Of a stretch of 54,097 nucleotides of DNA, positions 2,123-33,266 are shown piece after piece. The stretch is taken from assembly GCA_031272965.1 (NCBI GenBank), contig JAISSS010000056.1, positions 1 through 54,097 on the forward strand, in the 5' to 3' direction. This DNA is from Bacteroidales bacterium (GTDB taxonomy: Bacteria; Bacteroidota; Bacteroidia; Bacteroidales; Prolixibacteraceae). Under the pieces are notes generated by a model. That model searched no databases. It was not told where the DNA came from and saw only the letters and a list, made by a program, of their open reading frames with translations. Each line of letters starts with the position of its first letter. The stretch's first letter is position 1. The position numbers and the translations under genes are program-made.

Positions 2123-2184
2123 GTGCGCCCATGTCGCAGTAACTACACTATACTCTAATAACTACACTCTTATTTTTATGCAAC

Positions 2185-2214
2185 TGTTCCAAAAAACGTT
2201 CCTCTTTTGGAACA
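2185..2214. repeat. Left inverted repeat of a probable invertible segment (IRL)
   Basis: A 30-bp site whose outer 10 bp form a perfect dyad (TGTTCCAAAA / TTTTGGAACA) around the core AACGTTCCTC. Its core (CAAAAAACGTTCCT) recurs in reverse complement at 2402-2430; aligned end to end the two sites agree at about 26 of 30 positions. Dyad symmetry around a short core is typical of serine-recombinase crossover sites, and the core resembles the AAACGTTCGT-like sites recalled for Bacteroides Mpi. Confidence 0.8.
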
Positions 2215-2224
2215 ATATCTGCCA

Positions 2225-2232
2225 CAAAAGTA
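2225..2232 (-). promoter_or_regulatory. -7 element of the promoter inside the invertible segment
   Basis: On the minus strand these bases read TACTTTTG, an exact TAnnTTTG match, placing the start of transcription near 2218, just at the left inverted repeat. No strong TTTG -33 element is seen at the usual distance. After inversion the element would lie at about 2383-2390 on the plus strand. Confidence 0.65.
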
Positions 2233-2280
2233 GGCAAAATTTTGACGCCGCACTGTTAAAACCGGATATTTTTTGTACTG

Positions 2281-2306
2281 TCCTTATAAGTTATTGATTA
2301 TAAGGA
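2281..2306. repeat. 9-bp dyad in the middle of the invertible segment
   Basis: TCCTTATAA (2281-2289) and TTATAAGGA (2298-2306) form a perfect inverted repeat with an 8-nt spacer near the centre of the segment. It could bind a symmetric regulator or accessory factor; there is no direct evidence for either. Confidence 0.5.
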
Positions 2307-2401
2307 TATTATCATGTTTGTAATTATTTAATATTATGACAGGTATAAAATCAACATGCAAAAACAGTTAACATAAGTTCTCTAAAAATGCGCAAAATGT
2401 A

Positions 2402-2430
2402 TGTCCAAAAAAGGAACGTTTTTTGAGACA
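2402..2430. repeat. Right inverted repeat of the probable invertible segment (IRR)
   Basis: Its reverse complement carries the same core as the left site (CAAAAAACGTTCCT) and similar flanks (TGTCTC... and ...TTTTGGACA). It lies 93 bp before the start codon at 2524. Confidence 0.8.
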
Positions 2431-2523: not shown

Positions 2524-3852
2524 ATGAGAAGACACATTTTGTTTCAAAGTATGCTGACCCTATTGTTGGCGCTTGGAGTGACTGCCTGTGAAAATAACAG
2601 CGAATCTGCAGTGAGCGTTACCGGCGTAACGCTGGATAAGACGGCGCTGTCGCTCTCAGTGGGGGCGTCCGAAACCTTAGCGTCCACCGTTGCTCCGGCA
2701 GACGCCACCAACAAAGCCCTCAGCTGGGCCAGCAGCAATCCCGCAGTGGCCACAGTTGACGCCGCAGGGCAGGTAACGGCCCTGACATCCGGCACCACAG
2801 CCGTTGTTGTAACCACAGCCGACGGCGGCTATACGGCAACCTGCACCGTAACGGTCGGCGCGTCTGTTACCGGCGTAATGCTGGATAAGACGGCGCTGTC
2901 GCTCACTGTGGGGGCGTCCGAAACCTTAGTGGCCACCATCGCACCGGTGGATGCGGTCAATCAGGCCCTCAGCTGGGCCAGCAGTAATACTGCTGTAGCC
3001 ATAGTTGACTCCGACGGGCTTGTAACGGCAATCGCGGTCGGCGCGGCCGACATCACCGTAACAACGGCGGATGGCACCAAAACGGCGACCTGCGCTGTAA
3101 CAGTAACGCCCCTGCCCCCCGGAACCTATACTGCAAATGGCGTCTCTTTTGACATGGTTGCCGTTGACGGCGGAACTTTCAGCATGGGCGCCCCTTATGA
3201 TACTCCTGTTCACAGTGTAACATTGAGCAGTTTCAGCATCGGCAAAACGGAAGTAACGCAGGCGTTGTGGCTTGCCGTAATGGGGGCGCACAACTCAACA
3301 CAGAATTACGGCAGTGGTAAAAACTATCCTGAATATTATGTATCATGGAATGATATTGTCGGTACCGGCAATACAACGGGTTATACTGTTAATGGTGTTG
3401 CTTACAAGACGGACGGGTTCTGCTATAAGTTGAGCCAGCTTGTTGGCAGGCAGTTCTTCCTGCCAACGGAAGCCCAGTGGGAATATGCAGCCCGCGGCGG
3501 TAACAAGTCAAACGGCTATACCTACAGCGGCAGCAACACTATAGATGATGTAGCTTGGTATGTCAGCACCAGCAGTTCCACAGCTCACACTGTCGGTACT
3601 AAACAAGCGAATGAACTTGGCATATATGACATGAGTGGCAATGTGTGGGAGTGGTGCAGTGACTGGTATGGTACTTACAGCAGTAGTTCTCAGACGAACC
3701 CTACAGGCGCTTCTTCCGGCTATGACCGCGTACTTCGCGGCGGCAGTTGGGACAGCGGTACGACTTACTGCCGGGTGGCGGGCCGCTATCAACACGACCC
3801 CGCCGATCGCGGCGACCTCGACGGCTTCCGCTTGGCCTCTGATGCGGAATAA
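2524..3852 (+). CDS. Surface lipoprotein with two Big2 domains and a SUMF1/FGE-like domain
   Basis: The 442-residue protein has a lipoprotein signal with lipobox cysteine C22 (GVTAC). Two bacterial Ig-like group 2 domains follow at about 33-112 and 116-195, then a SUMF1/formylglycine-generating-enzyme-type fold at about 205-440. Signatures of the last domain are GGTFSMG, WEYAARGG, YDMSGNVWEW (from 368), RVLRGGSW and GFRLA. Of the two cysteines used by true FGE, only the one equivalent to the second is present (C416); the other position is Ser (S411). It may therefore be a binding or scaffold module, not a sulfatase-maturing enzyme. The Ig-like domains suggest cell-surface display. The gene stands alone behind the invertible segment and is probably phase variable. 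The two Big2 units are also near-identical in parts at DNA level. Confidence 0.85.
   Translation: MRRHILFQSMLTLLLALGVTACENNSESAVSVTGVTLDKTALSLSVGASETLASTVAPADATNKALSWASSNPAVATVDAAGQVTALTSGTTAVVVTTADGGYTATCTVTVGASVTGVMLDKTALSLTVGASETLVATIAPVDAVNQALSWASSNTAVAIVDSDGLVTAIAVGAADITVTTADGTKTATCAVTVTPLPPGTYTANGVSFDMVAVDGGTFSMGAPYDTPVHSVTLSSFSIGKTEVTQALWLAVMGAHNSTQNYGSGKNYPEYYVSWNDIVGTGNTTGYTVNGVAYKTDGFCYKLSQLVGRQFFLPTEAQWEYAARGGNKSNGYTYSGSNTIDDVAWYVSTSSSTAHTVGTKQANELGIYDMSGNVWEWCSDWYGTYSSSSQTNPTGASSGYDRVLRGGSWDSGTTYCRVAGRYQHDPADRGDLDGFRLASDAE
2617..2929 (+). repeat. Internal direct DNA repeat within the Big2 region
   Basis: A 64-bp block at 2617-2680 recurs at 2866-2929 with three mismatches, a period of 249 bp, which is one 83-residue Big2 domain. 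A second conserved patch (CTCAGCTGGGCCAGCAG) recurs at the same spacing. Such similarity at DNA level indicates recent duplication or ongoing homogenisation. Confidence 0.8.
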
Positions 3853-3933: not shown

Positions 3934-6900
3934 TTACTGCATTGCAATGACGGTTACAGGTCCCAGCAGGCCGGACGTTGTTAGCGGGGCGTCCGCACGG
4001 GGGCCCTGATTTAGCGTCAGCCCGCGCTCGGCTTCGGGCAGATTGCGGTCGCCGATAATGCGGTTCTCCCACGTGTTGACAACCTCAATTTCGAGGGTGT
4101 TGGCGCCGCTCTTCAGATACGGCTGGATGGCCACGCGATATGGCGGCGTCCATGCGCCTCCGGCATATTCGCCGTTAATTTTCACTTTTGCCATTACGCC
4201 GACCTTGCCGAGGTCGAGATATGCCCTGCCGGTGGACGTCCGGTCATACTCAAATGTGGTTTTATAGACGGCTGTGCCCGAATAATATTTGATTCGCGGG
4301 TCGGCGCTTGTCGTCCAGTCGCTCAGGGCATTGAGCGTAATCGGCGCCTCCGGCCCGCGATGAATTGCATCCGATTCAAATTGCACTGTCCATGGCGCCG
4401 TGATTTCAGTAAGCAGTTCCGGTTCAGGGAAATTTTCAGGTACACCTGCAACAGCAATTTGGGAAGATGCGGGCTGCAACAAATCTGCTTCTTCTCCGTC
4501 TTTTGCCTCGACTGTCAGGGGCTTGCCGTCGATTTTATAATTAACCTGCAACGTTTTCTTGACGCCGAACTTGGGGTCGCCGAGCGCCTTGGTGATTTCA
4601 TCAACTTTGACCGATGTATTTCCCGCCTCGACAATCTTCCGCAGAATGTCGGTGGCATCAACGGTAAATTGCTTTTCGTCCAGCTTACCGTAACGCGCCT
4701 GCTCTATCACTATGGCTGGCTGCTGTAGTGGCGGCTGCACGGTTACTGTTTCCTGCGAATGGGGCTTCCGGAACACAATAAATGCGCTTCCCGACGGCTC
4801 TAACTGTAGCGGCACAGATATGACTTGCGGATATTGAACAAATGATGGTAATAAGCGATGCTCGCCGGACACCGCATCCCAAAATTCAGGCTGCTTGCCG
4901 CTCACGCGAAATTCGGCAGGGAACTGAATCCGCGAATCACTCTGATTTGTAATGAAATATATGTCAACATCGCCGCTTCTGCGGTGAGAATACAGCACGG
5001 GGGCGCTGTTTCCGGCCCTGAAATCAGGCGCCAGATTTATTTCCTTGAAAATTGTGTTCAGGTTAACGCCTGAGCGGATTTTATCTTTCATTTTGGAGGC
5101 TATGTCCTGCACCTGTTTATCGGCAGCCGGATAGTTCTCCATGCTGGGCGAGCGTTTCGGTGGATTGCCGATGATGATGGCGCCCGCCTCGGCAAATTCG
5201 AGGATTTTCCGAGCCACCTCCGGTCGCATGGTCTCCTGCGGGGGCAACACGAGGACGCGGTATTGCGTACCGTGGGCGAGCGTCAATTTGCCGTCTTTAA
5301 CCGTAGTATTGTTCAGCAATACTTCGGCATTGATGTGGTCATAGTGATACCCGTTGGGAGTAATGGGGTCAGTTATTCCGCACATTTTCGGCGCATCTTC
5401 ACCGATAAAATAAGCTACATCCGAGACGTCAAGGCCCTGCTGTAGCATGAATCCGCAACGGCGCACGTAGTCGGTGAACAGGTCAAGCTGTGAGAACCAT
5501 GTATTTTTGCGGTTAAACTGTATGTTATACCACGCATCGACGCCCGGATATACATTATCGGCCTGCTGTTGAATGTAAACGTGCAGAATGTAGGCATTGA
5601 TGCCGGTAGAGAAAGCCCAGTCGCCGCGCTGCTTCAGGTTGCCGGGGTAATAGCTGTAATGCGGCCCCGCGCCGGTGAAGGCTTCCGCCCAGGCTTTTGG
5701 CTTGCCGTAAGTATGGGCACACGAGGTGGCGCAGCGGTTCTCCGGCTCGCCAATACCGCTCATGAAACCTACCCAAAATTCTCCGCCGACCTCGTCCGTT
5801 TGGCCTCCATATTGCAGGAACTCGCCTGCGAAGCCCCATGAACCGTAGTTTTCGAGCCACGTAGTCAGCCCGTCCGCATGAGATTTCTCGCGCATGGCAC
5901 GGACATATTCGTGAGCTATGCGGTCAGCAACCAGCCGACGGACGTCCCACAGGAAGCGGTCGGACAGTTCGGGGCTGCCCACAGGATAGCCAAAGTAGGC
6001 AGGGAACCATGGCGCAGGGTCATATCCATAACGTTCTTTAAATATCTCAATAAAATTATCAGTGATATTCTGTCCGCCTTTTTCATAACTGTCTAAGACG
6101 TTGATTTTAAATGTTTTACGGTCTTTTGCCGGAATGTGTTTCATCACCTCGCCAATATAGTTGTCGTGGTGATATTCTGTCAGCTTACCGCTGAGTTTAT
6201 CGACTTCGAGGCCTGCTGCGCCTTTGGGGACGGGCGAATTTTGGACTCCGGTCGGTAACATCCCTGTACGCAACACAACCCACTCTCCTTCGGGAACATC
6301 CCAGGTAAGAGTGCCGTCGGCGGCAAGATTTTTGCTAATATCCAGTACTTCTTCCGGCTTTATCGACATTGAGGCGTCAGAAGTTTGCGCATCCCACATG
6401 AAAGCGTCCCATGGCGGGGCCAGGCTGTTGAACATTTTTGCGAGCGTCTTTTCCGCATAGCGTTCAACTACGGGCGCACGGGTGAGCGTGAAGCCGGTCA
6501 GTCCGCCTTCCGAATTTGTGTTGCGGAACACAAGGCGGTATTCAGTGGCGGTTACTTCGGGGAACGATACTGCGACCGGCGAATTTGGCGTGAAGCCGCG
6601 GCTAAGCGTGTTGTCGGTGCGGTCAATGCCGAATCGTTTCACCGTTGAATATCCGGTGCCGGTTTTCACCTGAAGTTCGGCTTCCGTGCGGATGAGGCCA
6701 TATATGGGCAGGACTAATCCTTGTGCCGAAGCGGGTTTTGGTAACGAAAGCGTAATAAAGGCGTCGCCTTCATTTTGAGGCAGCCTGTATTGTTTACTGT
6801 CGGTCAGCGTAATATTTTTTGAAATGGAAACTTTTGCGCCCGGCATTTCAAACAAGTTGGCCGTAGCTTCCGCATTGACCTTGAAAGCCAGGACTTTTAC

Positions 6901-24587: not shown

Positions 24588-25202
24588 ATGATATTTGGTT
24601 ATATTCGTGTCAGTACCGACAAGCAGACGGTGAGTAATCAGCGGTTTGAAATCAACGGCTTTTGCAGCAGGAATGTGCTGGTGGTTGACAGGTGGATTGA
24701 GGAGACCATTTCCGGCACAAAGAAGGTGCATGAGCGGAAGCTCGGTCAACTCATACAGAACATGCAGCGGGGAGACATCCTGATATGCTCGGAACTGTCG
24801 CGATTAGGGCGGAATTTGCTTATGATTATGGGCATCCTCAATGAATGTATGAATCGCGACATTCAGGTATGGACGATAAAAGACAACTACCGGTTGGGCA
24901 GCGACATCAGTTCAAAGGTGCTGGCTTTCGCCTTCGGACTGGCCGCCGAAATAGAGCGTAATCTGATTTCGCAGCGCACAAAAGAGGCTCTTGCCCGCAA
25001 GCGGGCGGAAGGCACAACACTGGGGCGTCCCAAAGGCAGCAAATCGCAGGTGAAAAAACTCACCGGACGGGAGGCCGAAATACAACGACTGATGGAGAAA
25101 AACATCTCCCAATCGGACATCGCCCGCATTATGGGCGTCCATCGGATGACCGTCGCCGCCTACTTGAAAAGCCTGCAGTGTAACCGGCAAATTATTCCAT
25201 GA
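24588..25202 (+). CDS. Mpi-like serine DNA invertase
   Basis: Small serine recombinase (204 residues) that cuts and rejoins DNA at paired short sites. The resolvase domain starts MIFGYIRVSTDKQT with nucleophile S9 and contains SELSRLGRN and the long-helix region KVLAFAFGLAAEIERNLISQ. A C-terminal helix-turn-helix (about 165-198, SQSDIARIMGVHRMT) binds DNA. The sequence is very close to the master invertase Mpi of Bacteroides fragilis, which flips many dispersed promoters in trans. No inverted repeats are seen next to this gene, fitting a trans-acting role; the candidate target is the segment at 2185-2430. The gene stands alone between rsfS (divergent) and a convergent gene whose stop is 15 bp away. 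Confidence 0.9.
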   Translation: MIFGYIRVSTDKQTVSNQRFEINGFCSRNVLVVDRWIEETISGTKKVHERKLGQLIQNMQRGDILICSELSRLGRNLLMIMGILNECMNRDIQVWTIKDNYRLGSDISSKVLAFAFGLAAEIERNLISQRTKEALARKRAEGTTLGRPKGSKSQVKKLTGREAEIQRLMEKNISQSDIARIMGVHRMTVAAYLKSLQCNRQIIP

Positions 25203-33102: not shown

Positions 33103-33266
33103 ATGTGCCGTCAGGCACATTATGTTGGTAGAACCAAACGTTAGCGCTATCTCTGTGTGCCGTCAGGTACGCAATATGAGATTTTCCGCACATTCTGTCC
33201 CTACGCGGACGGTGGCAAGGTGAGGCATAATGTTTTCTACCAACATTTTGTCCCTGCCTGGACAGG
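33103..33266. repeat. Composite palindromic element, copy 1
   Basis: A series of small hairpins: GTGCCGTCAGGCAC (33105-33118), GTTGGTAGAAC, CGTCAGGTACGCAAT (to 33175), TGTCCCTACGCGGAC, TTTTCTACCAACAT and TGTCCCTGCCTGGACA. The same modules occur in the same order on the opposite strand at 42655-42796. The intergenic stretch 32877-33311 otherwise holds only the promoter and dyads of the ferredoxin gene. Confidence 0.65.

Follow-up and report, generated by a model that had tools for sequence, protein, structure and literature searches.

A probable Mpi-type invertible promoter ahead of a predicted DGR-target lipoprotein gene in a Bacteroidales genome

A single lipoprotein gene of a Bacteroidales bacterium very probably combines an Mpi-type invertible promoter with a lectin-like face rewritten by a diversity-generating retroelement (DGR). 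The gene is located in the window, which is the whole stretch of DNA analysed (54,097 nucleotides) and the entire contig C142 of an assembly of 2.6 Mb, 155 contigs and 84% completeness. Invertible promoters and DGRs are each known in gut Bacteroidota, and their pairing on one gene was not encountered in the open-access literature searched. If true, the combination would separate the making of variants from the showing of them, in a bacterial counterpart of how receptor diversity is first generated and then displayed.

The element comprises two inverted sites and the segment enclosed by them. The left site (TGTTCCAAAAAACGTTCCTCTTTTGGAACA, forward strand) is located at 2185 to 2214 and has a 12-6-12 layout; the right one (TGTCTCAAAAAACGTTCCTTTTTTGGACAT read on the reverse strand) is located at 2401 to 2430 and is mismatched with the left at a few positions. 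Both contain the core CAAAAAACGTTCCT, exact at 2190 to 2203 (forward) and at 2412 to 2425 (reverse). The pair has 27-nt arms that are 89% complementary, and each site is in turn internally dyad-symmetric, the consensus being approximately TGTTCCAAAAAA-CGTTCC-TTTTTTGGAACA, with 12-bp dyad arms flanking an asymmetric 6-base centre. The putatively invertible segment extends from 2215 to 2400, and the interiors of its paralogues occur in both orientations. The lipoprotein gene starts at 2524, 93 bp beyond the right site. The observed inverted-repeat score was reached in none of the first-order Markov simulations, comprising 60 whole windows and 2000 intergenic regions, and the inverted sites are far beyond chance. 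An earlier note on this DNA had described two sites of about 30 bp, dyad-symmetric, inverted and with a shared core, and its coordinates and distances are correct. The sole other inverted repeat of like spacing in the window was identified at 33112 to 33256 and is much weaker (22 nt, 19 matches). A REP-like palindrome, CCGTCATTGCGGGCTTGACCCGCAATCC, is found at 2017 to 2059 and in dozens of other places of the genome, often adjoining switches.

The promoter of the segment lies beside the left site on the reverse strand. Its -7 box (TACTTTTG) is located at 2225 to 2232, pointing left and away from the gene, and its upstream box (TTAACA) at 2254 to 2259, 21 nt from the former, a spacing that is identical in ten elements. 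This layout, TTAACA-N21-TAnnTTTG, is of the Bacteroidota type and is directed out through one site. Between 1900 and 2700 neither strand has any other exact TAnnTTTG. The earlier note had read this promoter correctly, and no fixed TAnnTTTG promoter was identified within 2430 to 2524. With no recognisable promoter facing it as assembled, the gene should be OFF, which agrees with what that note had proposed.

The switch would work as follows. In the assembled orientation the promoter points away and the lipoprotein gene would be silent. A small serine invertase, most likely the protein encoded at 24588 to 25202 or its paralogue on contig C49, would recombine the sites and flip the 246-bp segment. 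After the flip the -7 box would be placed at about 2383 to 2390 on the forward strand, and transcription would start approximately at the right site and reach the gene at 2524 after a leader of some 125 bases.

The window element belongs to a dispersed family. Across the 2.6 Mb of the assembly the 14-mer core is present in 15 copies and the control pattern, read backwards, in none. About ten similar elements were identified elsewhere in the genome, mostly ahead of surface-protein genes; a DNA search and site scans placed related elements on contigs C153, C60, C150, C100, C35, C112, C12, C22, C21 (two) and C88. Facing site pairs are always inverted and span 206-279 bp end to end in the elements measured. 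The TTAACA-N21-TAnnTTTG promoter is shared by nine elements, in which 39-41 bp separate the end of the -7 box from the outer edge of the nearer site; given this constant placement, the promoter is always aimed out through that site. A further region, on C98, also carries the promoter, and the 10 occurrences of the motif in the 359 kb of strand-bases searched equal the number of these regions.

The genes downstream are diverse: SusC/RagA outer-membrane proteins for the C12 and C112 elements, BACON or F5/F8-type proteins for those on C35 and C88, and a PEGA protein with a Big2 lipoprotein after it for that on C100. Pairs of lipoprotein-like and SusC-like genes, read from the sequences, are found downstream of the C22 element. 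No capsule locus was identified among the element loci examined. The C22 region (L045, 5573-9728) contains two divergent paralogous operons, each lipoprotein-like plus SusC-like, sharing three Mpi-type sites (7014+, 7227- and 8164+) with one promoter between the first two, an arrangement that looks like an either/or switch.

When 393 genomes of the order were searched at the DNA level, no orthologous locus was found, only this genome matching, and the genus comprises one genome. Among 60 genomes of the family the exact site core was identified in three others, in one or two copies, and the viral contigs searched contain no exact site. In another genome of the order (G135:C203, L219 7797-8046) there is a 33-nt inverted repeat pair with 29 matches, 184 bp apart, which contains GGTTCTTGGAACC and lies 3' of a protein-kinase/FGE fusion gene and 5' of an unknown gene; it is a possible inverton.

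The orientation of the segments can be read against their surroundings, all of this evidence consisting of comparisons between paralogues within one genome. Seven complete elements and the truncated C150 one share a short outer flank, TATTTTTATGCAAC at 2171 to 2184 (forward strand) in the window and approximately ATTTTTATGCAAC in the family, which shows conservation on the gene-distal side and none on the gene side. It is perhaps an accessory binding site for recombination, and it is usable as a fixed orientation reference. Judged by this flank and the gene, the promoter is directed away from the gene in C142, C153, C60, C100 and C12; in C35 and C112 it faces the gene. The clearest pair is formed by the C12 and C112 elements, both with the same outer flank and both preceding SusC genes: their interiors are identical at 157 of 190 positions (83%) solely when one of them is reversed (score 243 reversed, 35 direct). 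Contig ends in C150 and C21 had been considered as a sign of mixed orientation and were dropped, as they do not coincide with site edges.

The dispersal of about ten copies, with inverted repeats at their ends, could also suggest a non-autonomous transposon family (MITE), the sites being its terminal repeats and the promoters incidental. Here, however, homology extends beyond both sites into the flanks, the interiors are reversed relative to those conserved flanks, and the copies front surface-protein genes and hold the promoter in a constant position. A MITE or other dispersed repeat is extremely improbable and was rejected.

One paralogue apparently no longer switches. On contig C98 (L050, 1-1100, reverse strand) a paralogue of the window lipoprotein gene has a promoter facing it. 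The flanks align with those of the window at 65 of 77 positions upstream and 122 of 155 downstream, and the promoter region is identical to the reversed C100 interior at 107 of 111 positions. As a sign of past inversion this comparison ranks second, after that of C12 with C112. The region looks like a switch frozen with its promoter toward the gene, and as such demonstrates that copies do freeze. The window element might likewise be a relic of a family that once inverted, this copy being now fixed OFF or flipping negligibly. We consider this improbable: both window sites keep the exact core alongside an intact promoter, outer flank and reading frame, whereas the C98 copy has lost its left (upstream) site and its right one is decayed. 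Present-day flipping at the window locus is what we infer from these paralogues. Overall, one promoter cassette fronts many different surface-protein genes, in copies of both orientations, one of them frozen gene-facing.

The candidate recombinase is encoded in the window itself. The gene at 24588 to 25202 (forward strand) encodes a serine DNA invertase of the Mpi family (PF00239), scoring 329 bits with NCBIfam NF009949, whose cut-off is 272. A second gene of this family is found on C49 (L181, around 5640-6065), with 317 bits against the same cut-off of 272. These are the two resolvase-family genes found in the assembly, both above the NCBIfam Mpi cut-off, and no other non-Xer site-specific recombinase was found in it. 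The closest relatives of the invertase include many from Bacteroidales MAGs, and the host is presumably of gut origin. Against the proposed switch stand the few mismatches of the right site and the fact that no site adjoins either Mpi-family gene; moreover, a scan of the surroundings of 80 related mpi genes for promoter-bearing inverted repeats identified, by the criteria used, no comparable element.

The 12-6-12 layout of the sites resembles that of tyrosine-recombinase sites. Together with the incompleteness of the assembly, this gives some room for inversion by such an enzyme, either Xer or one missing from the 84% recovered, instead of by an Mpi-family protein. This alternative appears quite improbable: the two tyrosine recombinases found look by eye, in size and sequence, like XerC and XerD only, two Mpi-family genes are present, and the core AAACGTTCCT shares nine of ten positions with ARACGTTCGTN, the core reported for Mpi sites of B. 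fragilis (PMC8375218). One or both Mpi-family proteins probably act on these sites. The likeness in size and layout to the promoters flipped by Bacteroides Mpi, which the earlier note had drawn as an analogy, is raised by this core to a strong inference. The central proposal of that note, an invertible promoter, holds on the family of elements, the fixed place of the promoter, the two orientations among paralogues, the gene-facing promoter of the C98 paralogue, the lack of a fixed TAnnTTTG promoter in 2430 to 2524 and the invertase gene in the window. The reading of the element as an Mpi-type invertible promoter, with the gene OFF in the assembled orientation, is therefore well supported.

The lipoprotein gene (2524 to 3852, forward strand) encodes a predicted lipoprotein with two Big_2 domains and an FGE-sulfatase domain of C-type-lectin fold (PF03781), and its product is presumably surface-exposed. 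The closest solved structure is TvpA, the DGR variable protein of Treponema denticola (2y3c, 1.8e-32); true FGEs are more distant (1.7e-20). A catalytic FGE (SUMF1) enzyme was rejected, as the alignment to 6muj places Ser at the position of the first active-site cysteine. The C-terminal end, RGGSWDSGTTYCRVAGRYQHDPADRGDLDGFRLAS, resembles a DGR variable region. The earlier note, which described a Big2/SUMF1-like lipoprotein, had not recognised the status of DGR target, the most unusual aspect of the gene.

The corresponding DGR is found on contig C27. There, the only reverse transcriptase identified (603-1643) overlaps an HRDC-domain gene (164-643) and is followed nine bases later by a template repeat (1652-1773, in-frame translation GSNRVNRGGSWNNNATNSRVANRNNNTPDNRNNNIGFRLA), which is a 122-base match to positions 3718 to 3839 of the window (forward strand). 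Template and window repeat differ at 30 positions, comprising 23 of the 34 template adenines and 7 of the 88 other bases (Fisher p=6e-11). Contig C32 contains a further variable repeat, with changes at 18 of 40 adenines and 2 of 92 other bases (p=2e-9); it is located at a contig end (L179, reverse strand, last 320 bases), lacks its upstream region in the assembly, and its adenine specificity is cleaner than that of the window repeat. The same adenine bias, between an RT-adjacent template and its repeat, is found in 11 loci with a homologous reverse transcriptase from other genomes of the order, where a nearby FGE-type gene carries the variable repeat at its end. By this pattern of differences the window gene is a DGR target. 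Independently of the switch, the C27 DGR would copy mutated template sequence into 3718 to 3839, and an on/off switch would act on a single gene together with targeted hypermutation by a DGR elsewhere in the genome.

The rewriting could also be historical, the gene being a former target that is no longer rewritten and the promoter switch alone being live, a reading compatible with the main explanation of the switch. Its basis is that 7 of the 30 mismatches between template and variable repeat are not at A, more than the 2 of 20 in the C32 copy, so the window repeat was perhaps not rewritten recently; moreover, template and target lie on different contigs (C27 and C142). Against this count the adenine bias, which is still extreme, an unbroken reading frame, the apparent completeness of reverse transcriptase, HRDC gene and template, and the precedent of the HRDC-type DGR of T. 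denticola, for which targets at a distance are the norm (PMC4891356). We regard a purely historical DGR as rather unlikely, and the window gene is probably still subject to DGR activity at present.

The combination of switch and DGR may be of benefit. A tentative idea, which we hold to be possible and somewhat short of likely, is silent diversification followed by display: the DGR would rewrite the binding face while the Mpi-type promoter silences the gene in many cells, and variants would build up unexpressed until revealed by a flip. This assumes that DGR copying proceeds without the need for transcription of the target.

Open-access text searches, which did not cover Macadangdang et al., returned no DGR target under an invertible promoter, and the earlier statement that control of this type of protein by inversion is undescribed stands within the open-access literature searched. 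Of the 18 scanned loci with related DGR reverse transcriptases, none has an invertible element by the criteria used. A nineteenth such locus, L222, has a weak repeat pair ahead of its target gene, with a TAACTTTG box in the right arm that faces the gene and an interior with a terminator-like hairpin. Given that box and hairpin it looks like a fixed promoter, and as a switch before a DGR target it was rejected. With 18 related loci devoid of an element and L222 fixed, the coupling of switch and DGR appears to be particular to this lineage.

Among known systems, the element is closest to the invertible promoters that Mpi controls in Bacteroides fragilis and relatives, as reported by Krinos 2001 and Coyne 2003 (cited via PMC8375218, PMC4747536 and PMC12632263). 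Both have a TAnnTTTG promoter between short inverted sites at a spacing of about 200 bp, many dispersed loci, an Mpi-family serine invertase in the genome and surface molecules as cargo, and the cores differ in one base, AAACGTTCCT here and ARACGTTCGTN in B. fragilis (PMC8375218). Unlike those of B. fragilis, the sites here are longer, palindromic and of 30 bp, and the cargo comprises SusC, BACON and Big2/FGE lipoproteins, one of these being a predicted DGR target. In related invertible promoters of B. intestinalis, transcription begins inside the proximal repeat (PMC8375218).

Phase-variable surface lipoproteins of Bacteroidota are also represented by the S-layer lipoproteins of Bacteroides thetaiotaomicron (PMC12548429), the abstract of which does not mention DGR targets. 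Bacteroides DGRs have been described as diversifying tip proteins of type V pili (Macadangdang et al., as cited in PMC12632263); host phylum and surface target are shared, the target being a pilus tip there and a Big2/FGE lipoprotein here.

The DGR most similar to the one on C27 is the HRDC-type DGR of T. denticola with its TvpA-like targets (PMC4891356; 2y3c). Both have an HRDC gene overlapping the reverse transcriptase gene, lipoprotein targets of FGE/C-type-lectin fold, remote targets and an adenine-specific variable repeat at the 3' end. The gene order here is HRDC-RT-template, whereas in T. denticola the accessory gene lies between template and reverse transcriptase. Unlike the treponemal ones, the target in the window has Big_2 stalk domains and is placed behind what is very probably an invertible promoter.
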